From positions 1 through 64,000 of the forward strand of contig SVJE01000001.1 of NCBI GenBank assembly GCA_015069135.1: a stretch of DNA of 64,000 nt. The letters run 5' to 3'. Both the position numbers and the translations under genes were made by a program. This DNA comes from Oscillospiraceae bacterium (GTDB taxonomy: Bacteria > Bacillota > Clostridia > UBA1212 > SIG427). The first letter of the stretch is position 1. Every line of letters begins with the position of its first letter. The notes under the pieces are model-generated. The model saw nothing but the letters and a program-made list of their open reading frames with translations, made no database searches and had not been told where the DNA came from. Of the stretch, positions 23,561 to 36,404 are shown one piece after another.

Positions 23561-24559
23561 ATGGTTAAATTTGAAGGTTATGACAGAAGAATAGATACTA
23601 TCAATAAAGCTATGGCTGAGTACGGAATTGCCTCTTTGGAAGATGCAAGAGATATCTGTGCTGCTAAGGGTATTGATGTTGAAGCTATCGTTAAGGGTGT
23701 TCAGCCTATCGCTTTTGAAAATGCTGTATGGGCTTACACATTAGGTTGTGCTATTGCAATTAAGAAGGGCGTTACAAACGCTGCTGATGCTGCTGAAGCT
23801 ATCGGTGTTGGTTTACAGGCTTTCTGTATCCCGGGTTCTGTTGCTGATGCAAGAAACGTAGGTTTAGGTCACGGTAACTTAGGCGCTATGCTGCTTCGTG
23901 AAGATACAAAGTGTTTCTGCTTCCTGGCAGGTCACGAATCTTTCGCTGCTGCTGAAGGTGCTATCGGTATTGCAAGAACAGCTAACAAAGTAAGAAAAGA
24001 ACCACTTCAGGTTATCTTGAATGGTTTAGGTAAAGATGCTGCTTACATTATTTCCAGAATCAACGGCTTTACATACGTTGAAACAGATTACGACTTCACA
24101 ACAAGAGAACTTAAGGTTGTAAGAACAAAAGCTTTCTCTGATGGTGAGCGTTCTAAGGTTAGATGTTACGGTGCTAACGACGTTAACGAAGGTGTTGCTA
24201 TCATGCAGCATGAGCATGTAGAAGTTTCTATTACAGGTAACTCTACAAACCCAACAAGATTCCAGCACTTAGTTGCAGGTACTTACAAGAAATGGGCTAC
24301 AGAAAACGGAGTTAAGTACTTCTCAGTTGCTTCCGGTGGTGGTACAGGTCGTACACTTCACCCAGACAACGTTGCTGCAGGTCCTGCTTCTTATGGTCTT
24401 ACAGACTCCATGGGTCGTATGCACGGTGATGCTCAGTTTGCAGGTTCTTCTTCTGTTCCTGCTCACGTAGAAATGATGGGTCTTATTGGTGCAGGTAACA
24501 ACCCAATGGTTGGTATGACTGTTGCTTGTGCAGTTGCTATTGAAGAAGCTTGCAAATAA
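23561..24559 (+). CDS. GGGtGRT protein (target of element insertion)
   Basis: 332 residues, recognised by the eponymous GGGTGRT motif (about residues 259-265) and glycine-rich loops such as GLGHGNLGAMLL. Biochemical function is unknown; it probably works with the scaffold-like protein just upstream. AAGGAGG lies 10 bases before ATG 23561. The last 94 bases (24466-24559) form the left attachment repeat of a 7.1-kb integrative element, so the C-terminal codons downstream of the crossover come from the element. The encoded protein is unchanged because the differences between the att copies are silent. Codon use indicates high expression. Confidence 0.88.
   Translation: MVKFEGYDRRIDTINKAMAEYGIASLEDARDICAAKGIDVEAIVKGVQPIAFENAVWAYTLGCAIAIKKGVTNAADAAEAIGVGLQAFCIPGSVADARNVGLGHGNLGAMLLREDTKCFCFLAGHESFAAAEGAIGIARTANKVRKEPLQVILNGLGKDAAYIISRINGFTYVETDYDFTTRELKVVRTKAFSDGERSKVRCYGANDVNEGVAIMQHEHVEVSITGNSTNPTRFQHLVAGTYKKWATENGVKYFSVASGGGTGRTLHPDNVAAGPASYGLTDSMGRMHGDAQFAGSSSVPAHVEMMGLIGAGNNPMVGMTVACAVAIEEACK
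24466..24559 (+). repeat. attL of the integrative element
   Basis: 94-bp copy of the 3' end of the GGGtGRT gene, repeated directly at 31464-31557. The block 24485-24559 (75 bp, ending in the TAA stop) is identical in both. The first 15 bases (CGTAGAAATGATGGG) are also identical, with only TCTT versus CTTG between them, and both versions encode Gly-Leu-Ile. The crossover must lie in the 75-bp identical block. Confidence 0.92.
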
Positions 24560-24625
24560 TAAGGATTTTCGGGGCTTTTGCGCTTTTGTAGGGTTCTTGT
24601 TATATAAAAACCAATAAGTGAAATG

Positions 24626-24673
24626 TTAGACACATTATTTTTGGGTTTTCCTGGATGATGTGTCTAATTTTTT
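24626..24673 (+). terminator. Element-supplied terminator behind the GGGtGRT gene
   Basis: TTAGACACAT (24626-24635) pairs with ATGTGTCTAA (24658-24667), followed by T6. The chromosomal terminator beyond attR (31604-31650) has the same stem sequence. Confidence 0.85.
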
Positions 24674-24687
24674 ATTGGAGGTTTGCT

Positions 24688-25623
24688 ATGAAAAAACTGC
24701 AGATGTTAATATCAAATACTATTACATTTGAAGAAGGCTGTAATAAGTATCTTGATAATTGTCGGCAAAGAAATTTAAGAGAGGGGACTATTAATCACTA
24801 CAAGCAAAGTTACACACAGTTTTATAAGTTTTTTAATCCTGAAATGCCAGTTTCAGAAATTACAGAAAGTTCGTACAATAATTATGTTTTGTATTTAAGA
24901 GAAAGTCTTAATAACGATATTAGTATTAACTCTTATCTTAGGGACTTAATAACAACACTGCACTTTCTTATGAATGAGGGATATATTTTACCTTTTAAGA
25001 TGAAAGCAATAAAAGTTGATAAAACGAGAGTTGAAACATATACAGAAGATGAATTACGTTTATTGTTACAAAAACCGAACATTAAAAATTGTAAGTATGT
25101 TGAATATCAATCGTGGGTAATGACGAATTTGCTTTTTTGTACCGGGGTAAGACAAAGAAGTCTTATGAATATTAAAATTAAAGATTTGGATTTTGATAAT
25201 AACTTAATATATGTAAGCGTTACAAAGAATAGAAAACCGCTTCTTGTTCCTATAAATAAAACTATGGGAAACATACTGTCTGAATTTATGAGGTATAGAC
25301 AATATAAAACTTCTGATGATTATTTGTTTTGCAATGTGTTTGGTCAACAGCTTGTCAAAAGCACTTGTTACCACATGCTATATAGTTATAACAAGCGTAG
25401 AGGGGTTAATACTACTGGAATACATAGATACAGACATACTTTTTCAAAACAATGGATTTTGAATGGTGGAAATGTTGTAACCCTCTCCCGCTTATTAGGT
25501 CACAGTTCCCTTCAGATAACACAAAATTACATAAATTTACTTGTTTCTGACGTTGCAAAACAAGTTGAAGAAATTAATCTGATTGATATGTTTAGTGACA
25601 AAAAATATATAAAAATGAGGTGA
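24688..25623 (+). CDS. int: Tyrosine recombinase/integrase
   Basis: 311 residues. A SAM-like N-terminal core-binding domain (about 10-100) is followed by the catalytic domain (about 120-300). The catalytic set is visible: Arg in CTGVRQRSL, Lys in VTKNRKP, HRYRH (His-x-x-Arg), LLGHSSLQIT, and the nucleophile Tyr in TQNYINL. The ATG at 24688 follows TGGAGG by 5 bases; an earlier in-frame ATG lies in the terminator stem. Adjacent to attL, it is the enzyme expected to have integrated the element into the GGGtGRT gene and, with a directionality factor, to excise it. Confidence 0.95.
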   Translation: MKKLQMLISNTITFEEGCNKYLDNCRQRNLREGTINHYKQSYTQFYKFFNPEMPVSEITESSYNNYVLYLRESLNNDISINSYLRDLITTLHFLMNEGYILPFKMKAIKVDKTRVETYTEDELRLLLQKPNIKNCKYVEYQSWVMTNLLFCTGVRQRSLMNIKIKDLDFDNNLIYVSVTKNRKPLLVPINKTMGNILSEFMRYRQYKTSDDYLFCNVFGQQLVKSTCYHMLYSYNKRRGVNTTGIHRYRHTFSKQWILNGGNVVTLSRLLGHSSLQITQNYINLLVSDVAKQVEEINLIDMFSDKKYIKMR

Positions 25624-25629
25624 AAAGAA

Positions 25630-25917
25630 ATGATTAAATTTACAGGGAAAAACGAAAATGAACAGTTTGTATCCATTTTGATTAATGATGAAATGTCAAC
25701 TAAAAAGGTATATGAGCACGTAAAATCTTTATATGATTCTATTAATTTATGTTTTTATAAGATGGATGATGAAGAAATTGTTTTAAAATTAACAAGCGAT
25801 ATTGAGTATGGCTTCTCACTTAATGAGTTGAGGCAAACTGTAAACAAAATAGCCAATGCTACGATTACATGCTTCTGTGTTGATTTACAGGTACCAAGCC
25901 AAAGATACATGTGGTAA
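25630..25917 (+). CDS. Small unrecognised element protein
   Basis: 95 residues, 6 bases after int and with AGGTGAAAAG before ATG 25630, so it is co-transcribed with int. It is an alpha/beta-like sequence, acidic in the centre, without membrane segments. A recombination directionality role would fit the position, but the protein has no obvious winged-helix motif. Its last 160 bases overlap the 3' part of the opposing XRE gene, and its final few residues may be read-through past a deletion junction. Confidence 0.6.
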   Translation: MIKFTGKNENEQFVSILINDEMSTKKVYEHVKSLYDSINLCFYKMDDEEIVLKLTSDIEYGFSLNELRQTVNKIANATITCFCVDLQVPSQRYMW

Positions 25918-26072
25918 AAGGATAATAATACCTCTGTACTTGGTGTTCTTTCACCGGTTTCATATCCTGATACAATTGAAGGGGAAATTCCTGTTTTTTC
26001 AGCAACTTGTTTTTGTGAATATCCATATTGCATACGTAAGTATTTTAAGTTTTCAGGTAATCCTTTAATCAT
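25755..26072 (-). CDS. XRE-family HTH repressor, probably truncated
   Basis: 105 residues in the open frame. The N-terminal helix-turn-helix is clear (residues 5-60: LKYLRMQYGYSQKQVAEKTG, SPSIVSGYETGERTPS). The ATG at 26072 has GGAGGTG 6 bases upstream on the minus strand. After about residue 65 the sequence no longer looks like an XRE protein and is simply the antisense of the opposing gene, so the original C-terminus may have been lost by a deletion. It probably regulates the divergent zinc-ribbon gene and int. A short CTTATTGT motif recurs at about 26090 and 26158 in the divergent region. Confidence 0.75.
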   Translation of the reverse strand: MIKGLPENLKYLRMQYGYSQKQVAEKTGISPSIVSGYETGERTPSTEVLLSFYHMYLWLGTCKSTQKHVIVALAILFTVCLNSLSEKPYSISLVNFKTISSSSIL

Positions 26073-26214
26073 TGTGTTCACCTCCAACACTTATTGTAAA
26101 CAAAGTGTCATTACAATGGGTTCTTATATGAAACTATTAAAGTGTTGATGATATCCGCTTATTGTGATAATATTTCTCTATGGAATATTATTATAGAGTG
26201 TTCAGGAGGATTAT

Positions 26215-27006
26215 ATGGCTTTAGTTAAATGTCCAGAATGTGGACGTGAAAATGTTTCAGATAGTGCAGAAAGTTGTCCAAATTGCGGGTATGCAATAAA
26301 GCAATATTTTGATGATATCAAAGAGCAAGAAAGAATTTTGCAAAGAAAGAGAGAAAAGCAAAAAGAGTGGGAAGAATTAGAAGAAATTAAAAAAGAAACT
26401 GCCGGAGATAGACAAAAGGAAGCAATAAAAGAATTGATGAATAAAATTTCTAAAGATAAGCAAGGTATTATATGTTCATTTGTTGGGTTACTTATTATTG
26501 TTCCATTATTTGTTTTTCTTTTGCATATAAGTGAAGAGAATAATTTTGGTGGCATTATTGTGTTTGAAGCTCTTTTGATTTTCTTTTGTTTGGCTTTATT
26601 GATAAGTTATATTTCTGACAAACGTAAAAATACTGAAAAATTAAAAATTGCAAAACAGGATTTTGATGAATATGAAAAACGTATTGTTGAATGTAAAATA
26701 GGAGAAATAATAGACTTTGAATGTCCGGAATGTGGTTATAATCAATCATATCGTAGTGTTACACCTTATTCAGAAGTTGGCATATGTGCGCGGTGTGGAG
26801 AAATGACATTTTATAATAGCAATAATGAAAATAACAATGAAAACGATACGCCTGTTCTAAAAAGTTTAAAATGTCCTGTTTGTGGTTCGTTAAACATCAA
26901 GAGAATTTCTACTCTTAATAGAACGATTTCTGTTGCTACAGTTGGATTGGCATCTTCTAAAATAGGCAAACAATACGAATGTAGAAATTGTAAACATAAA
27001 TGGTAA
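26215..27006 (+). CDS. Zinc-ribbon membrane protein
   Basis: 263 residues. The N-terminal zinc ribbon (CPECGRE...CPNCGY, 6-25) is followed by a charged coiled coil (about 30-85), two adjacent membrane helices (about 84-104 and 110-132), a second coil and a middle zinc ribbon (CPECG...CARCG, about 169-195), then a C-terminal ribbon CPVCGSLNIKRIST...CRNCKHKW. The C-terminal module is common in Firmicutes proteins of unknown function. AGGAGG lies 7 bases before ATG 26215. It could tether nucleic acid or protein to the membrane, but that is conjecture. Confidence 0.82.
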   Translation: MALVKCPECGRENVSDSAESCPNCGYAIKQYFDDIKEQERILQRKREKQKEWEELEEIKKETAGDRQKEAIKELMNKISKDKQGIICSFVGLLIIVPLFVFLLHISEENNFGGIIVFEALLIFFCLALLISYISDKRKNTEKLKIAKQDFDEYEKRIVECKIGEIIDFECPECGYNQSYRSVTPYSEVGICARCGEMTFYNSNNENNNENDTPVLKSLKCPVCGSLNIKRISTLNRTISVATVGLASSKIGKQYECRNCKHKW

Positions 27007-27073
27007 AAAAATAAAATTAATCTTTTATCAATAAATAAACATAAGTGTAAGAGAGTTAAATTTAAAAAATATA

Positions 27074-27102
27074 TTGACCTTTTCTGACCTTTATGGTATA
27101 AT
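27074..27102 (+). promoter_or_regulatory. Promoter of the element RNA
   Basis: TTGACC (27074-27079), a 17-bp spacer, and an extended TGG-TATAAT (-10 at 27097-27102). Transcription should begin near 27108, about 260 bases before the next start codon. Confidence 0.75.
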
Positions 27103-27106
27103 GTAA

Positions 27107-27319
27107 GTGTTGTTGCTCGAAGTCCAGAGCAAACCAAATAAACAACACAATTAATAATCTTTACCGCTTTTTAATGTAGGTTAGTGCTAGGAATGTTTTT
27201 CGAAAAGCACAAGCGGAGCAATTTCCTAAATGGCAATAGGCTATGCTGATTGAATATAGCGAATTAAGTGTATTGAAAGATATGCTTTGTTTGTTGTATT
27301 CAGTTTGCATAGCTTTTTT
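27107..27319 (+). ncRNA. Candidate structured RNA of the integrative element
   Basis: About 210 nt with no reading frame, between a strong promoter and a terminator. It starts with a two-part hairpin: GTGTTGTT/AACAACAC (27107-27114, 27141-27148) enclosing TTGCTC/GAGCAA (27113-27118, 27127-27132). Further pairings are GTGCT/AGCAC and ACCGCTT/AAGCGG (about 27170-27216). The 3' end closes with GCTATGC/GCATAGC plus TGAATA/TATTCA (27240-27313) and T6. It matches no RNA family I know. It may be an independent RNA or a regulated leader of the HNH-helicase pair. Confidence 0.55.
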
Positions 27320-27368
27320 GTTTTTTATAAAGCAGTACAAAAAAATTATTTAAGAAAGAGGTAGAAAA

Positions 27369-28139
27369 ATGAAAAATACAAATTTAAATGAATACGCAAC
27401 ATTATCAGAGGCTTCAAAGCGTAGTAGATACTCAAAAAAACAAATACAAAAATTAGCAGAGCTGGGAAACGAACGAATTAGGTCTAAAAAATTAAGTAAT
27501 GGTCACAAACTATATAATTTAATAGATATTCTACAATATTCTTCGGCTCATCCAAATGAAACAATATTAAATCCAGTATGGGATGCAATTAATCAACTTG
27601 AAGGGGAATATTTCTATCCGTTATTTGGATATGATTACAAATACTTCTTGTCAAATAAAGGTCGAATCATTAATGCCACTAATGGTCAAGTTTTAACAGC
27701 TCAGCCAAGAGGTAAAGATTCTTATAAACAGGTGTGTTTAATAAAATATGGAAAATCAAAACTTGAATATTTACATCGGTTAATTGCATTAACACAATGT
27801 CCAAATTCTTTATTCAAAGACATAGTTCATCACATAAAAATACATAATCCGTCTATAGATAAAGCAAGCAATTTAATATGGGTTTGGAAGTGGCAACATG
27901 ATGAATTACACAGGTTATTAAAAGAAAATAAAATGGAGGATTATAACAAAATGGTTAAAAAAATTAAAAATGAAAATCGTCAAAAAATATATAAAATACC
28001 ACATTTGGATTTTGAATCAGATGAACATTTCAATTATTTTATGTTTGTTACTGAAAATGGTTTTAGAGCCTATAAAGAAAGTAGAAATGTTCCAGTTAAT
28101 AGCATTATTAAAGAATCTGCTGAGGCAAAGGAGGTATAA
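27369..28139 (+). CDS. HTH-HNH endonuclease-like protein
   Basis: 256 residues. Residues 1-60 resemble a MerR/excisionase-type winged helix (YATLSEASKRSRYSKKQIQ..). Residues about 75-180 form a NUMOD4/HNH-like unit: a 'FYPLFGYDYKYFLSNKGRI' opening, LHRLIAL, then VHHIKIHNPSIDKASNLIWV with the His-Asn pattern of HNH_3 nucleases. The canonical 'vNHiDgn' is altered to VHHIKIHN, so activity is uncertain. The C-terminus is Lys-rich. GAAAGAGG precedes ATG 27369. The helicase gene starts 2 bases after its stop, so the two proteins are made together and probably act together. Confidence 0.72.
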   Translation: MKNTNLNEYATLSEASKRSRYSKKQIQKLAELGNERIRSKKLSNGHKLYNLIDILQYSSAHPNETILNPVWDAINQLEGEYFYPLFGYDYKYFLSNKGRIINATNGQVLTAQPRGKDSYKQVCLIKYGKSKLEYLHRLIALTQCPNSLFKDIVHHIKIHNPSIDKASNLIWVWKWQHDELHRLLKENKMEDYNKMVKKIKNENRQKIYKIPHLDFESDEHFNYFMFVTENGFRAYKESRNVPVNSIIKESAEAKEV

Positions 28140-28141
28140 TA

Positions 28142-29908
28142 ATGAATGTAGAATTAAAAAATTTTCTTGATACATACTTGGAAAAAGAAGTTGATACAAC
28201 AAAAATATCAGTGTTCCCTCTCCCTTGTGGAATTGGCAAATCAGAATATATTAAATATACTATTGCTGAGACTTTGCAAAATGGTAAGGGTTTGATTGTT
28301 GTAACAGACCAAATTGACCGTCTTAAGAATTATACAGTTGCACAGGATGAGGAATTAACAGAATATATCAACAAAAATAAAAAATTTATTGCTATTTTAA
28401 CTAGTGAAACAATTAAAGAAGAACTTAAAGATATACATAGTAAACCTGTTGTTTTAATGAGCACACAGCGTTATTTTAGTTTGACTAAAGATGAAATAAT
28501 AAATTATACCTCTAATCATTGGGTTAAAAGAAATAAAATTATATTTGATGAAAAACCATATATATTGGATGCTCGTAGAGTGACTATTAATTCACTAAAT
28601 AAAATTGATACAGCATTAAAACAAGCCTTAGATGATACAATTGACCAAAAAAATAAGGTTAAATTAATTGAGTGTTGGAAAGTTATTAGTGAAAAACTTC
28701 AGACGGCATTAGATGTAAACGAAGAACAGAACTCTGGTTATAAAAGGGAAGGATATTTCAATTTTAATGACTTAAAAACGGAAGATGATATATATATATT
28801 TTTGAAACTATATCCTAAATACAAAAGGCAATTAAACAAATATAATTTAGATGTAGTAAAAGATATTGAAGCAGTTATTCAGTTATTTAATGAAGGTGTA
28901 ATAACAAGTCAAAAGGTAAAAGTGAAAAAATCAGGAAAAGAATATAATAAGTATTTTACTGTTATTGTCAATCATGTGAACAAATTGTTCGAAATAAACG
29001 CAAAAATTTATGTATTAGACGGTACAGCTGATATATCACCTGAATATCAACTTAAATGTTTTGAATTGATTAATTGTGACAATTTTCAGCGTGATTTGAG
29101 CAATTTAACTATAAACATAATTGATGTTAATACAAGTAAAGAGAGATTGACAAAACTTGGCGCTAAAAGTGATAGTTTGATAACAACTATTATTGATTAT
29201 GTTAAATCATTACCGCAAAACATTGATACTGTTTTTACATATAAAGATATTTCCCAAAAGTTTGAAAACAATTTTAAAAATGTAAATTGGTTCGGCAATA
29301 TTAAAGGTTCTAACCAATATAGGGGAGTAAAACATATTTGTCAAGTTGGCTTACATAGATATTCTGAATTAATTTACATGCTATATGCAAATGCGATTAA
29401 TCAATTTAATGATAGTGATAAAACCTTTAATCAGCGTATTTATGATATGGAAACCATTGATAATATTAGATGCAATTTGATAATTACAGATATCGAACAA
29501 AATTTATTCAGATGTAAAATCAGAAACAATGATAATAGAGAACAGTGTACATATACTTTAATTTGTACAGTTAAAGAAAAAAATGAGTTATTTGAAGGTT
29601 ATCAGCCTATAATTAATATGATTAAATCACGATATGAAAAATTAGGTGCAATTGTAAATGTGGTTGATACACCAGCACAGTTTAGATTGTTTAAAATTAA
29701 AGAAAGAAAACAAGATACTTCTGCCAAAAAAATAATAAGATGGTTGGATGCTAAAGAAAAGGGATATGTGTTTAAAATTGCTGATATGTTAAAGGATTTG
29801 AAGATAAATCATAAACAATTCGATAAAATCAAGAGAAACAATGTTTCTATTATGGACTTGTTTAATAGTATAAAAACGGAGAAACGAGGATATTATGAAA
29901 TAAAATAA
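28142..29908 (+). CDS. Divergent SF2-type helicase/ATPase
   Basis: 588 residues. Helicase motifs are visible in order: Walker A PCGIGKSE (about 28-35), motif Ia TDQID, an STQRYF stretch, Walker B IIFDEKP (about 133-139), motif III-like DGTAD (about 298-302), motif IV FTYKDI, motif V NIKGSNQYRG, and motif VI EQNLFRCKIR (about 452-461). The C-terminal ~70 residues look like an extra DNA-binding helical domain. By family it should couple ATP hydrolysis to nucleic-acid translocation. Together with the HNH partner it may serve element replication, transfer or defence; the sequence alone does not decide. The start is ATG 28142 with AAAGGAGG upstream. Confidence 0.78.
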   Translation: MNVELKNFLDTYLEKEVDTTKISVFPLPCGIGKSEYIKYTIAETLQNGKGLIVVTDQIDRLKNYTVAQDEELTEYINKNKKFIAILTSETIKEELKDIHSKPVVLMSTQRYFSLTKDEIINYTSNHWVKRNKIIFDEKPYILDARRVTINSLNKIDTALKQALDDTIDQKNKVKLIECWKVISEKLQTALDVNEEQNSGYKREGYFNFNDLKTEDDIYIFLKLYPKYKRQLNKYNLDVVKDIEAVIQLFNEGVITSQKVKVKKSGKEYNKYFTVIVNHVNKLFEINAKIYVLDGTADISPEYQLKCFELINCDNFQRDLSNLTINIIDVNTSKERLTKLGAKSDSLITTIIDYVKSLPQNIDTVFTYKDISQKFENNFKNVNWFGNIKGSNQYRGVKHICQVGLHRYSELIYMLYANAINQFNDSDKTFNQRIYDMETIDNIRCNLIITDIEQNLFRCKIRNNDNREQCTYTLICTVKEKNELFEGYQPIINMIKSRYEKLGAIVNVVDTPAQFRLFKIKERKQDTSAKKIIRWLDAKEKGYVFKIADMLKDLKINHKQFDKIKRNNVSIMDLFNSIKTEKRGYYEIK

Positions 29909-30599
29909 TACCCCCCTATTCTCTATAGAAATATATATAAAAAATATGGGGGTAAAATAAACCATGAGCTGATGTGTTGGTTTATTAGACTGTCTGTCAA
30001 GACAAAAAGGATAAAAATACAATTATTGTATTTAACTTTGTTAAATAGTATACACGCATACATATACTATTTTTTGTAGGTTAAATGTATGTTGTATTAA
30101 ATAAATATAGTATATGTATTCCATTTAACTATTGCCTGATTCTAACTTGGTTTTATTCTTTTGGTTTTTCTTATCCGGAATAGTTAAATGATTAAACCAT
30201 AATAGATAATGTAATTAAAGATAATGTATAAATATACATTATATGCACTTTACTTATTTCTTCTATGGTTAATTAACATAATACATGTATTATTGTAAAC
30301 ACTGAAAAATTGAATGTTTATAAATTTATTCGGTAGTTTTCGGTAGTAGTATCAAAGGCTCAATAATTGAAGGTTTACTAAATTATAAAACCTTTTCGGT
30401 ATGCATACTTTTTACAGCATAAACACCCAATAATTGAGAGTTTGTATTTTAGTTTAAGCCTTTTCGGTCGGTAGTTTGAATTTTTAAGTGAGAGTGAAGT
30501 GAAACACATTAACAAAGGTTGTGTATTGGATAATCAAATATAAATGTAATATATCCCCTTATATACAGTATCGGTTTAATGGTTGTATTAAAATAATTG
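29908..30599. other. Gene-free, repeat-rich region of the element
   Basis: About 690 bp of AT-rich DNA without a convincing gene. It holds a hairpin TACCCCC/GGGGGTA after the helicase (29909-29954), the palindrome AATACAATTATTGTATT (30016-30032), an inverted repeat AATAGTATA/TATACTATT (30044-30052, 30063-30071), and two 40-bp direct repeats beginning CAATAATTGA and ending CCTTTTCGGT (30361-30400, 30428-30468). CGGTAG occurs three more times nearby. Iteron-like repeats beside a helicase and a resolvase suggest a replication origin and/or a res site. Confidence 0.6.
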
Positions 30600-30629
30600 T
30601 TGACAGGGCATGTATTAATACATTATAAT
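30600..30629 (+). promoter_or_regulatory. Resolvase promoter with spacer palindrome
   Basis: TTGACA (30600-30605), an 18-bp spacer and TATAAT (30624-30629). The spacer contains the perfect 14-bp palindrome ATGTATTAATACAT (30610-30623), a probable operator that would block polymerase directly. Confidence 0.72.
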
Positions 30630-30681
30630 AGTATTTGTTTTAAGGAACCTTAAAAATGATACAAAAGGAGTGCTGTATAAA

Positions 30682-31365
30682 ATGATTTATGGATATGCAA
30701 GAATATCAACACCGGCTCAAAGTATTGAAAGACAAATTAGAAATATTAAAGATTTTGATGAAACAGCAATAATATTTCAGGAAACTTACACAGGTACAAA
30801 ACAAGAACGTCAACAATGGTTAAAACTGCTTAAAAAATTAAAACAGGGTGATACCATTGTTTTTGATTCTGTTAGTAGAATGAGTCGTAATGCTGAAGAT
30901 GGTTTTAGGGAATATGAACAGCTTTATAATAAAGGTATCAATCTTGTGTTTTTAAAAGAGCGGTATATAGATACAAATACATACAAAAATTCATTAAATC
31001 AACACATTGCTACTACGGGAAATGAAATAGCAGATACATACATTGAAGCAACAAATAAAGTATTAATGATACTAGCCAAACAACAAATAAAATTAGCTTT
31101 TGAACAAGCAGAAAAAGAAGTTAAAGATTTACACACAAGAACGTCTGAAGGTATGAAAACAGCCAAATTAAACGGTAAGCAGATAGGTAGACAAAAAGGG
31201 GCTATTATAACAAGTAAAAAAAGTATTGAAGCAAAGAAGATTATTGAAAAACATTCCATTGATTTCGGCGGAAGTTTAACAGATAAAGAAGTTATGATTA
31301 TGATTGGAAAAATTGCAAGAAATACATTTTATAAATATAAAAAAGAATTGAAAAATGAATTGTAA
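30682..31365 (+). CDS. Small serine recombinase (resolvase/invertase)
   Basis: 227 residues. The catalytic domain (1-140) opens IYGYARISTPAQS with nucleophile Ser8 in the ARIS motif, and carries DSVSRMSRN with the catalytic arginines. A helix E region and a short C-terminal helix-turn-helix (about 185-225) follow. The ATG at 30682 follows AAGGAG by 11 bases; the GTG at 30670 overlaps that site. It probably resolves element multimers at a res site in the repeat region upstream, or performs a second recombination step distinct from int. Confidence 0.9.
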   Translation: MIYGYARISTPAQSIERQIRNIKDFDETAIIFQETYTGTKQERQQWLKLLKKLKQGDTIVFDSVSRMSRNAEDGFREYEQLYNKGINLVFLKERYIDTNTYKNSLNQHIATTGNEIADTYIEATNKVLMILAKQQIKLAFEQAEKEVKDLHTRTSEGMKTAKLNGKQIGRQKGAIITSKKSIEAKKIIEKHSIDFGGSLTDKEVMIMIGKIARNTFYKYKKELKNEL

Positions 31366-31463
31366 AAAAATTGGATTTTTGATATAATGTGTGCGGACAT
31401 TAATGTAAATAATGTGTATAAATCATTTGTTTGCTGGTTTTACATTCTTTGTTTTTTCAATCG

Positions 31464-31557
31464 CGTAGAAATGATGGGCTTGATTGGTGCAGGTAACAAC
31501 CCAATGGTTGGTATGACTGTTGCTTGTGCAGTTGCTATTGAAGAAGCTTGCAAATAA
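31464..31557 (+). repeat. attR of the integrative element
   Basis: Right copy of the 94-bp repeat; 31483-31557 is identical to 24485-24559. Upstream of the crossover this copy is element-derived and reads GGCTTGATT instead of GGTCTTATT, both coding Gly-Leu-Ile. Confidence 0.92.
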
Positions 31558-31603
31558 GAGGCTTTTATAGCGGTTTTAGACCACATTTATAAAAATTAAC
31601 ATT

Positions 31604-31650
31604 AGACACATCATATTCAGTGAAATGGCTATGATGTGTCTTGTTTTTTT
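31604..31650 (+). terminator. Original GGGtGRT terminator beyond attR
   Basis: AGACACATCATA (31604-31615) pairs perfectly with TATGATGTGTCT (31630-31641), followed by T7. A third, partial copy of the stem (CATCATATGATGTGTCTAA) lies at 31672-31690. Confidence 0.85.
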
Positions 31651-31766
31651 ATCTCCTTGAATTTCAGTACCCATCATATGATGTGTCTAAAAGAGCACTA
31701 TGTATTTATTGCTTTAAGAAGTGATTTTTATTATAATAATACAAAATAAACGGAAAGAGGAACATT

Positions 31767-32666
31767 ATGAAAATTAAAGCACCACTTTACAGAGATCCGA
31801 TTTATGATGGAGCTGCTGACCCCATGGTAATACGTAAAGAGTCAGACGGTAAATTTTATATGTTCTATACGCAACGTCGTGCAAATCAGCAAGTTGAGAA
31901 TGTTTCATTTTGCTATGGTACAAAGATTGGTGTTGCAGAATCAGATGATGGGGCTAATTGGCATTATCGCGGCGCTCTTGATCTTGATTTTGAGTTCGGA
32001 CACAATACTTTCTGGGCGCCCGAGGTTATTTATAATCCGGAGGAAAAATTGTACCATATGTATGTTTCATATATAGTTGGTGTGTATTCGGATTGGGGTG
32101 GGAATGCATCTATTGAACATTATACATCTACTGATTTGTTTTATTGGGATCATGTAGGAGGGCTTAGTTTTGGTTCTGCAAGAATCATAGATCCTTGCTG
32201 CTTCAGACTTCCTAACGGAAAATGGCGCATGTGGTTTAAGGATGAAAGACAGTATTCTAATACCTGTTATGCTGATAGTGATGACCTTTATGAATGGACA
32301 TACAGAGGTATGGCTACCCAGGACCAGCCACAGGAAGGCCCTAATGTTTTTGAGTTTGCAGGAAAGTATTGGATGATTGCAGATATTTGGGCAGGACTGG
32401 CTGTTTATTCTTCTGATGACTGTGAGAATTTTTCCAGACAGACATCTAATATACTTGTTGAGAATGGAACTCGCCCTGATGACAACCATAAAGGTGGCCA
32501 TGCGGATGTGTTTGTTACAGGTGAACGTGCCTTTATTATTTATTTTACTCATCCGGATGCAAGTATTCCTACCAGAAGTTCCGTACAAATGGCTGAGCTT
32601 AAGATAGAGAATGGTATTCTGAACTGTGACAGAAACCAGGAAATTGACTGTGATTGGCGCTGCTAA
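31767..32666 (+). CDS. GH43-type five-bladed propeller glycoside hydrolase
   Basis: 299 residues without a signal peptide, so cytosolic. The sequence has the repeating 'D..Wh..G' blades of clan GH-F/J-like propellers. Candidate acidic residues are Asp18 (AADPMV), Asp about 134 (RIIDPCC), and Glu in QEGPNVFEF (about 192). HKGGHADVFV near 240-250 provides the usual His. It should act on short oligosaccharides taken up by the cell; linkage and exact family (GH43 or a relative such as GH117) are open. It lies between attR and a degraded third att-like site, so it may be cargo of an older insertion. ATG 31767 follows AAAGAGG. Confidence 0.78.
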   Translation: MKIKAPLYRDPIYDGAADPMVIRKESDGKFYMFYTQRRANQQVENVSFCYGTKIGVAESDDGANWHYRGALDLDFEFGHNTFWAPEVIYNPEEKLYHMYVSYIVGVYSDWGGNASIEHYTSTDLFYWDHVGGLSFGSARIIDPCCFRLPNGKWRMWFKDERQYSNTCYADSDDLYEWTYRGMATQDQPQEGPNVFEFAGKYWMIADIWAGLAVYSSDDCENFSRQTSNILVENGTRPDDNHKGGHADVFVTGERAFIIYFTHPDASIPTRSSVQMAELKIENGILNCDRNQEIDCDWRC

Positions 32667-32719
32667 ACCGGTTTTAAAATATTAATAGTAATATGGTAAA
32701 ATGGATGAAGACACGCAAA

Positions 32720-32755
32720 CGTAGAAATTGTGGTATTGATTTGTGCAGGTAACAA
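32720..32755 (+). repeat. Degenerate third att-like site
   Basis: 36 bp starting CGTAGAAAT and ending TGTGCAGGTAACAA match 31 of 36 positions of the attR sequence (29 of 36 of attL), in the same orientation. It lies in the 113-bp gap between the GH43-type gene and the acyltransferase gene. A chance match of this length to att is very unlikely. Confidence 0.7.
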
Positions 32756-33923: not shown

Positions 33924-36404
33924 ATGAAGAGAAGTTTGATTGCTTTTTTGCTTACTACCATTATTTTAATAATATGCTGTGGTATTAACTTTGTGTCGGC
34001 TACTGAAATAAGTGAAAGTGATTCCAACGCTTATGTAACAGGAACACTGGAAAATGGTCTTGAGTTCATACAATATGATAGTTACTGTGAGATCACTTGT
34101 TATAACGGTATAAATAATTCTGTTGTGATTCCTGAAGAAATTAATGGTCTGCCGGTAACAAGCATAGGCAACTCTGCATTTTCTGGTTGTAGAGATTTGA
34201 TTAGCATTGAATTACCTGACAATTTAGTTAGTATTGGAGATTCAGCTTTTTATGGTTGTCAAGGGTTAACCAAACTGATAATACCGGAAAGTGTAACCAG
34301 TATAGGTGTTTCTGCTTTTCGTGATTGTTCACAATTAACGAGTGTTAATATTCCTGATGGAGTAACTAAAATTGAAAAATATACTTTTTATATGTGCAAA
34401 GCATTAACCGAGGTATCTATTCCTGATAGTATAAATAGCATAGGGAGTTATGCCTTTTATTGTTGCTATACGTTGTCTGATATTAAAATACCGAATGGTG
34501 TAACATATATAGATGATTATACCTTTTATATGTGTAAAGCTTTAATTGACATAGACTTGCCGGACGGTATAATCAGCATAGGTAAATATGCTTTTTCTCG
34601 CTGTGATATATTACCTAATTTGGAAATTCCGAGTACTGTTACAACAATAGGTGAGTATGCTTTTAGTGGATGCTACAAGTTAACTGATATTAAGCTGCCA
34701 GATTGTGTTACAAGTATAGAAAGTCATGTTTTTTACTGCTGTTACAAGTTGGATTCTATTAATATTCATAAAAATATAACTAATATCAGCGAAGGCGCCT
34801 TTTCGAGTTGTTTAAGTTTAATTGATATAGAAATACCCCAAACTGTTACTTATATTGATAGTTCAGCTTTTTCTGGTTGTAATAATTTAAGATTTGTATT
34901 TTACAGGGGAACAGAGAAACAATGGGAAAATTTTGCTGTTAAATTACCATTAGGAATGATTGCTGAACCGAAAGTGTTTTATAATGTGTCTGATTTTGGC
35001 GTTTTAAATGGTTTATGGAAATATGTATGTTTTGACACATACAGTGTTGTGCTTGATTATGTAGGTGATGAAGAAGTCGTTGTTGTTCCAGGTGTGATTA
35101 ATGGAGTACCTGTGACTTTATTAGGGGAATCAGCTTTTAGGGAATGTGAAATTGTAACCAGTGTAACAATACCTGAAGAGGTAATTGCTATAGAGAAAAA
35201 TGCATTTTATAATTGCACAAACTTAACTACTGTGGATTTACCTGGAAATTTAAAAAGCATAGGTGCAGATGTATTTTATAATTGTGATAGTTTGAAATCT
35301 ATAGCATTGCCGAAAAGTTTGTCTGATATGGGAGCTGGTGCTTTTTCTTATTGTGATAACTTAACCGAAGTGGATATACCGGAAAGTGTTACGGTTTTGA
35401 AGCCGGCTCTCTTTAGAGAATGTACCAGTTTGACTAAAGTAACGATACCAAATGATGTAACAGAAATTGGTAATTATGTATTTGATGGCTGTATCAGTTT
35501 GGTAGAGATAACAATACCCAAAGGTGTAACGGTAATAAATAGTGGTATATTTTACAATTGTAACAGTTTGGAAAATGTAACAATACCAGAGGGCGTAACA
35601 AGTATTGGAGCGAGTGCGTTTTATGGTTGCGATAATTTGAAGAGTGTGAATATACCTGATAGTGTAATCAAGATAGGAAAGAGCGCGTTTGCTGGTTGTG
35701 ATAATTTAACCAGTATAGAATTACCTCCGGAAATAACTATCATACCGGAAAGTCTTTTAGCTTCCAGCGGTCTGATTAGTATAGCAATACCTGAAAAAGT
35801 AACAACAATTGAGAAAAATGCATTCTATAATTGTGCAGGATTGAAAATAGTAGAAATTCCGGCGTCGGTTACGAGCATAGGAGAATATGCTTTTAGTATT
35901 GTGGAAGATAGAGACAAGATTAAAGTGTATTATGAGGGAACTCGTATCAGATGGGACAATATTACCAAGGGAAAATATTACGGTTTAGATGGTGATGAGT
36001 TTATTTTTCTTTTGGAACCAGACTTGAAGCGACAGGTTAAAGAAAAGACTCATGTTTCTGAATTTGCATCAGCTCTGGGAGATGACTTTGTCTGTGTTGT
36101 ATATAAAGGTGATATCGTTGTTTCCTCTGATACATTTATTGGCACAGGAATGAAAATAGTTGTTACCAGTAAGACAACAGGAGAAACCTATAATAAGGAG
36201 CTTGTAGTTATTGGTGATACTAACGGGGATGGCAGAGTGACGAGTGCCGATTACATGAGAACTAAGAAGGCTGCAAGAGATTATAACTATTTATCCGCAA
36301 CCCAGAAAAAAGCAGCCGATATTAATGGTGATGGACTGATTAAAACTGCTGATTATATGAAAATAAAAAGATATACAAAAGGCGAATTCGATATATACGC
36401 ATAA
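33924..36404 (+). CDS. Secreted BspA-like LRR protein with C-terminal dockerin
   Basis: 826 residues. After a signal peptide (1-27) come two arrays of BspA/TpLRR repeats of about 23 residues ('L..I.IP..VT.IG..AF..C'), one at about 60-340 and one at about 385-670, each opening with a 'yngv/vGd-v.iP..inG.PVT.iG' cap. A beta module (about 695-770) and two dockerin-type calcium loops (DTNGDGRVTSADYM and DINGDGLIKTADYM, about 770-822) end the protein. BspA-like proteins mediate adhesion; the dockerin predicts docking to a cohesin elsewhere in the genome. GGGGAG precedes ATG 33924. The C-terminal module matches the one in the DUF4838 protein at 6029. Confidence 0.9.
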   Translation: MKRSLIAFLLTTIILIICCGINFVSATEISESDSNAYVTGTLENGLEFIQYDSYCEITCYNGINNSVVIPEEINGLPVTSIGNSAFSGCRDLISIELPDNLVSIGDSAFYGCQGLTKLIIPESVTSIGVSAFRDCSQLTSVNIPDGVTKIEKYTFYMCKALTEVSIPDSINSIGSYAFYCCYTLSDIKIPNGVTYIDDYTFYMCKALIDIDLPDGIISIGKYAFSRCDILPNLEIPSTVTTIGEYAFSGCYKLTDIKLPDCVTSIESHVFYCCYKLDSINIHKNITNISEGAFSSCLSLIDIEIPQTVTYIDSSAFSGCNNLRFVFYRGTEKQWENFAVKLPLGMIAEPKVFYNVSDFGVLNGLWKYVCFDTYSVVLDYVGDEEVVVVPGVINGVPVTLLGESAFRECEIVTSVTIPEEVIAIEKNAFYNCTNLTTVDLPGNLKSIGADVFYNCDSLKSIALPKSLSDMGAGAFSYCDNLTEVDIPESVTVLKPALFRECTSLTKVTIPNDVTEIGNYVFDGCISLVEITIPKGVTVINSGIFYNCNSLENVTIPEGVTSIGASAFYGCDNLKSVNIPDSVIKIGKSAFAGCDNLTSIELPPEITIIPESLLASSGLISIAIPEKVTTIEKNAFYNCAGLKIVEIPASVTSIGEYAFSIVEDRDKIKVYYEGTRIRWDNITKGKYYGLDGDEFIFLLEPDLKRQVKEKTHVSEFASALGDDFVCVVYKGDIVVSSDTFIGTGMKIVVTSKTTGETYNKELVVIGDTNGDGRVTSADYMRTKKAARDYNYLSATQKKAADINGDGLIKTADYMKIKRYTKGEFDIYA

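Follow-up and report, generated by a model that had tools for sequence, protein, structure and literature searches.

Integrative elements whose attP carries a replacement for the target sequence are established for both tRNA and protein-coding targets (PMC10111431, PMC12884075). Replacement of a gene end is a long-known strategy at icd, guaA and trmE and among streptococcal integrative and conjugative elements (ICEs) (PMC10111431, PMC12884075, PMC8409611, PMC4701971), 43% of mapped islands sit in protein-coding sequences (PMC12424338), and tandem integration is known from SGI1 (PMC2297512). Here we analyse a 64,000-nucleotide stretch of an Oscillospiraceae bacterium genome (GCA_015069135.1, contig SVJE01000001.1, positions 1 to 64,000; hereafter the window), in which the 3' end of a GGGtGRT protein gene is very probably the target of an integrative element of about 7.0 kb. 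The element uses a tyrosine recombinase and carries, on its attP, a coding-equivalent replacement for the gene end. We found no paper that names GGGtGRT as an integration site, judging by the titles and abstracts of the nine in which the word occurs and with the TIGER/Islander table outside the search. Both the target and its integrase clade seem to be undescribed, and the same is perhaps true of the leader site considered below. An earlier interpretation of the window's letters (the sequence-only reading) had stated that no described element is known to have this target, which seems to hold for the gene itself but not for the strategy, familiar from other genes.

The GGGtGRT gene (PF14057, Pfam E value 5e-193) occupies 23561..24559 (+), and comparison of the att copies indicates that its last ~30 codons are now supplied by the element. 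The in-frame end of the gene, attL at 24466..24559 (+), is the element-side copy, and the displaced gene-end copy, attR, lies at 31464..31557 (+). These 94-bp direct repeats start 6,998 bp apart, and the repeat has exactly these two strong matches in the genome. The last 75 bp of the first copy (24485-24559) are identical in the second, and the TCTT/CTTG block that distinguishes the copies amounts to three mismatches that change no residue in the host frame (GGT CTT to GGC TTG, Gly-Leu in both). Counted with the stop, the span has 30 complete codons and one further base, not the 31 codons first counted; the length of 94 bp was correct. GC content is 25-31% between the att copies against ~40% in the GGGtGRT flank upstream. 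A tRNA/tmRNA search of the whole window found no such gene, so the locus lacks what defines a tRNA-associated genomic island. The sequence-only reading had proposed an integrative element at 24466-31557 bounded by repeats of this gene end and not of a tRNA, and its coordinates, the 75-bp identity and the silent differences were all reproduced. It had also called the host gene highly expressed, for which the detection of GGGtGRT proteins in a rumen metaproteome (PMC7035244) gives indirect support.

The integrase gene int (24688..25623, +) starts ~130 bp 3' of the GGGtGRT stop codon. Its likely initiator is the ATG at 24688, after GGAGG at 24677-24681; a longer open reading frame (ORF) from 24655 overlaps one arm of a leader inverted repeat that lies between attL and int (24626..24667, +). 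The product matches PF00589 (1e-29) and its assignment as a tyrosine recombinase also follows from the tree and from the conserved catalytic residues R166, H257, R260, H283 and Y292 (numbered from 24655), which are invariant among relatives.

The same arrangement recurs in other genomes. We searched relatives with the 31-residue C-terminal GGGtGRT peptide for additional partial copies, and more genomes with an extra partial gene end were recovered, the second copies lying 1-49 kb from the first. Close integrases adjoin such an in-frame copy in G047 (78% identical, copies 15 kb apart) and in G046 (74% identical, 9 kb apart). Among 391 genomes of the class, all integrases at least 46% identical to that of the window adjoin GGGtGRT, while none at 41% identity or below does. 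A scan of genome contigs placed 15/15 loci beside GGGtGRT, in Clostridia/Oscillospiraceae metagenome-assembled genomes (MAGs), many of them from ruminant gut, and in the tree 15 GGGtGRT integrases group as a single clade (support 100/100), whose members occur across many genera. Duplicated GGGtGRT ends near a tyrosine recombinase, which the sequence-only reading had proposed to look for, recur in these genomes. The GGGtGRT gene itself is present in 184 of the 391 class genomes, mostly as a single copy, and the clade integrase in six, so that occupation of the site is a few percent. That one integrase lineage sits at one gene, while integrase-free single-copy sites are the rule in the class, bears out the proposal of a replacement gene end in a site-specific integrative element. 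Phage and plasmid records contained only integrases less than 60% identical, with the best places listed below 30%. IMG/VR contributed a tandem pair (L089) and two more contigs (L136, L137); L089 is 99.99% identical to G413 over 14.4 kb and is thus uninformative on excision.

The position at which the copies begin to correspond is constant. In 16 attL/attR-type pairs, arrays included, the displaced copy begins at about GTNGARATGATGGG, the stretch ATGATGGG is identical in 16/16 pairs, and about half of the pairs differ at the leucine codon that follows it. The flanks 5' of GTNGA are mostly unrelated between paired copies. Because of this common start, the identical core and the unrelated flanks before GTNGA, the crossover appears to lie within GARATGATGGG (~24470-24480 in the window); everything 3' of it, tail and stop codon included, would therefore come from the element. 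Could the second copy instead be the leftover of an ordinary GGGtGRT duplication or of homologous recombination, with the integrase a bystander? Copies with no full-length integrase nearby (G010, G021, G026, G028, G029) would fit such an origin, but some integrase-less cases retain the leader repeat or int fragments and look like decayed elements, the extra copy in simple attL/attR pairs starts at the same codons and is joined by no further gene sequence, and all members of the integrase clade lie beside GGGtGRT. We consider this origin extremely improbable. Ordinary gene duplication in particular is rejected by the constant boundary and the integrase association, and the copy is thus not the duplication remnant that the sequence-only reading had named as the finding that would speak against it.

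The gene-end copies are under coding constraint, and yet the tail is exchangeable. Over codons 3-26 of the repeat, 50 differences are synonymous and 4 non-synonymous, with a random expectation of 24% synonymous, while the last codons show 10 synonymous and 11 non-synonymous differences. Tails have been swapped in G047 (...EESNK vs ...EESSK) and in G046 (...VSEAMNK vs ...VQEAMNK). The claim that the element inserts without altering the protein is consequently true in the window, but the last residues change in several relatives. GGGtGRT C-terminal tails also vary inside one genus (g9), an observation consistent with tail exchange.

From this anatomy we infer the chemistry of the reaction, a circular form and excision. 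The preferred reading is that the integrase would recombine a short core near the GGGtGRT 3' end (GARATGATGGG, Glu-Met-Met-Gly) with the same core in a circular attP. Starting at that core, attP would hold a complete substitute for the final ~28-30 codons, together with the stop codon and a hairpin 3' of it. After integration a full-length gene would stand upstream (attL), and the end that the host gene had before would lie beyond the element (attR). The expected attP junction would join the element end ...TTTCAATCG to CGTAGAAATGATGGG and run on into the int leader. As the target site is restored at attL, further elements can enter in front of those already present.

Several observations weigh against this site-specific integration. 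A search of IMG/VR contigs for the attP circle found none, and same-genus flank comparisons yielded no exact empty site in the same species with identical flanks. In the best pair, G101 (with integrase) and G174 (without), which belong to the same genus, the flank resumes ~42 kb and ~6 kb downstream and not at the stop codon, and G101 has no recognisable second copy or attR; most of the genomes compared are MAGs. A serine recombinase of the DNA invertase/resolvase type (30670..31365, +; PF00239 6e-23, phrog_125 3e-37) lies near attR, and it could contribute to movement. That this enzyme, and not the tyrosine recombinase, moves the element is very unlikely in our view. Its relatives are present in some elements at the site, with 53-54% identical copies in those of L071 and L093, and the 'Serine Core' recombinases of some genomic islands have been described as either possible integrases or false positives (PMC12424338). 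In most elements at the site, however, it is absent or distantly related, and it matches invertase/resolvase families without an integrase C-terminus, whereas every intact element has the tyrosine recombinase next to its attL, and the tree of this enzyme follows the target.

Most of the nearest relatives of the GGGtGRT integrases lie directly 3' of tRNA genes (Ser, Leu, Gln, Arg, Thr, Trp, Pro) or of guaA. The tRNA-associated outgroup integrases are 32-41% identical, and the order gene-att-leader-int is common to both. At L065 and L134, guaA-associated integrases fall into one larger family with those found at tRNA genes and at GGGtGRT. The target was probably switched from a tRNA to a protein gene with the order gene end-leader-int kept, the direction being deduced from a tree whose branching outside the GGGtGRT clade is poorly resolved.

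The leader inverted repeat of the window consists of TTAGACACATTAT-(16)-ATGATGTGTCTAA followed by T6, and such a repeat occurs after both the first and the second gene-end copy. Across the clade the typical form is TTAGACACATCAT-(15-19)-ATGATGTGTCTAA followed by T's, with L137 divergent. The repeat suggests an integrase operator and/or a terminator, and int would be controlled by integrase bound there and/or by termination of GGGtGRT transcription. No Rfam family matches the leader. The simplest explanation, that it is a mere intrinsic terminator of GGGtGRT with no tie to integrase binding, seems to us only a little short of an even bet. It accounts for the T run, for a strong RNA fold (z -5.4) and for outer pairs that covary (6 pairs changed on both sides; 0/500 shuffles), but covariation is expected of a palindromic protein site too, and the inner eight pairs CACATCAT/ATGATGTG, which hardly vary, are not required of a plain terminator. 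A host terminator as the sole origin of the repeat was rejected; most single-copy integrase-free sites are without it.

A relation between the leader and attB is also seen. In the window, the right arm matches attB at 13/15 positions over ATGATGTGTCTAATT / ATGATGGGTCTTATT. The arm likewise resembles the element's own anticodon-arm half-site in several tRNA-targeting relatives (Ser AATCGTGTG, Gln ATCAGTTT, Leu AATCAAGTAT, Trp AATCYTGGTGT). Over 13 target groups, the likeness of arm to own attB exceeded that of permuted pairings (p ~2e-4; 1e-3 without the GGGtGRT group; 3e-4 to 5e-4 with the spacer unconstrained), values that are exploratory, as the resemblance was seen before the test was made. 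This fit of the arm to the element's own half-site also speaks against a terminator with no tie to the integrase. Own-target likeness is absent in several tRNA groups (Arg, Pro, both Thr), and in some of these cases the repeat picked looks like the terminator of the tRNA. As several groups show no resemblance and the test came after the pattern, we treat the relation as a lead. A broader proposal, that across the superfamily the att-int inverted repeat consists of attB half-site copies that serve as an integrase operator (and terminator) and change with target specificity, is tentative, and we would sooner doubt than accept it. If it were true, the GGGtGRT clade would be a documented switch from a tRNA anticodon arm to a protein gene with the operator changing alongside, and the leader of an uncharacterised integrase could serve to predict its attB.

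Elements at the site measure from 5.7 kb to 48.7 kb, the largest being a prophage, and as many as three occur in tandem. This prophage (G194) lies in a 5.1-Mb single-contig genome, has near-identical att copies at its ends and encodes terminase, portal, major head, tape measure and tail fibre proteins. Phage genes are also carried by elements in G413 and G412, with a portal in both and a tape measure in G413. Among small elements, that of G046 has a type III restriction system as cargo and that of G047 a UvrD helicase; the proteins of small and mid-size elements also include a GajB-like helicase, a bSEFIR-type protein and WYL regulators. Such defence-like cargo and WYL-domain regulators were observed in small elements at L033, L032, L072, L073 and L090, several of them at the attR-side end. 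Of the four gene-end copies in G413 (L092-L094), the first three are each followed by an intact int; G409 (L090-L091) has five copies. In both arrays at least three different elements appear in tandem at one GGGtGRT gene. At L035, L040, L042 and L051, leader repeats and/or integrase fragments lie 3' of GGGtGRT where an intact integrase is absent, and these loci are probably decayed elements.

The window likewise suggests an array of one intact element and an older remnant (31558-32755) that has lost its integrase. The older tandem element is deduced from a second leader-type inverted repeat 3' of the displaced copy (31602..31643, +), which has no int, and from a third, degraded att copy of 36 nt beyond the originally proposed interval (32720-32755, +); the latter is 31/36 identical, against a best match of 24/36 in 20 shuffled windows. 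The probable remnant (31558..32719, +), comparable to arrays in relatives, contains a GH43-like ORF (31767-32666). Further downstream, a BspA-type leucine-rich-repeat protein with a dockerin-like C-terminus (repeated DxNxDGxxxxxD), judged by eye, is encoded at 33924-36404.

Between its att copies the intact element encodes, besides the two recombinases, a Cro/C1-type helix-turn-helix regulator (25755..26090, -; PF01381 1e-13, phrog_8 transcriptional regulator), a zinc-ribbon cargo protein (26215..27006, +; PF13248 7e-8), a NUMOD4/HNH endonuclease-like protein (27369..28139, +; PF07463, phrog_59 8e-15) and a 588-aa protein with a Walker-A-like motif (CGIGKS; 28142..29908, +). The last has no recognisable relative in Pfam, NCBIfam, PDB, IMG/VR or 291 class genomes, and only a marginal match in PHROGs. 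No relaxase or mating genes were recognised among the proteins of the window element, and it has no terminase, portal, capsid or tail genes, whereas the related G194 element does. A phage satellite of the phage-inducible chromosomal island type would be a small element with int, repressor and replication module that a helper packages; the window element has int, the helix-turn-helix regulator and the orphan P-loop-like protein, and no primase or packaging gene was recognised in it. As it has neither a recognised relaxase nor virion genes, it may spread as a phage satellite, be carried along by conjugation or transduction, or be mobilizable through a relaxase that escaped recognition.

In gut Clostridia the GGGtGRT 3' end is thus a recurrent integration hotspot with a defined core of Glu-Met-Met-Gly codons, at which both prophages and small elements with defence cargo are found, and a host protein can have its C-terminus exchanged by such an element. 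In this clade the shift of tyrosine integrases from tRNA to protein-gene targets can be studied as a natural experiment. The clade also gives a testable rule tying the int leader to the target, and practical att/integrase pairs for anaerobes that are hard to engineer.

Compared with described systems, the element is closest in strategy to the icd-targeting prophages (phage 21, e14), in which attP also replaces the gene end, the target stays functional and the identity block is long (PMC10111431); here the target gene is another, the hosts are unrelated (Clostridia) and the integrases form a separate clade. With the guaA-, trmE- and rpmG-type 3'-end islands, ICEs and integrative and mobilizable elements (SGI1, streptococcal) it shares a tyrosine recombinase at the 3' end of a conserved protein gene, but the gene differs, and at GGGtGRT the replacing stretch of ~95 bp can bring a changed C-terminal tail. 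In the KplE1 prophage, the intS promoter overlaps attL, a precedent for negative autoregulation (PMC2951348). Its int, too, points away from attL and has integrase sites in the leader, whereas in the GGGtGRT elements the stretch between att and int holds a separate palindrome, with half-site-like arms 15-22 bp apart, where binding is putative. The tRNA-3'-end islands of the same superfamily have the same gene-att-leader-int order, several with a half-site-like leader, and differ from the GGGtGRT elements in that the target of the latter is a protein gene.

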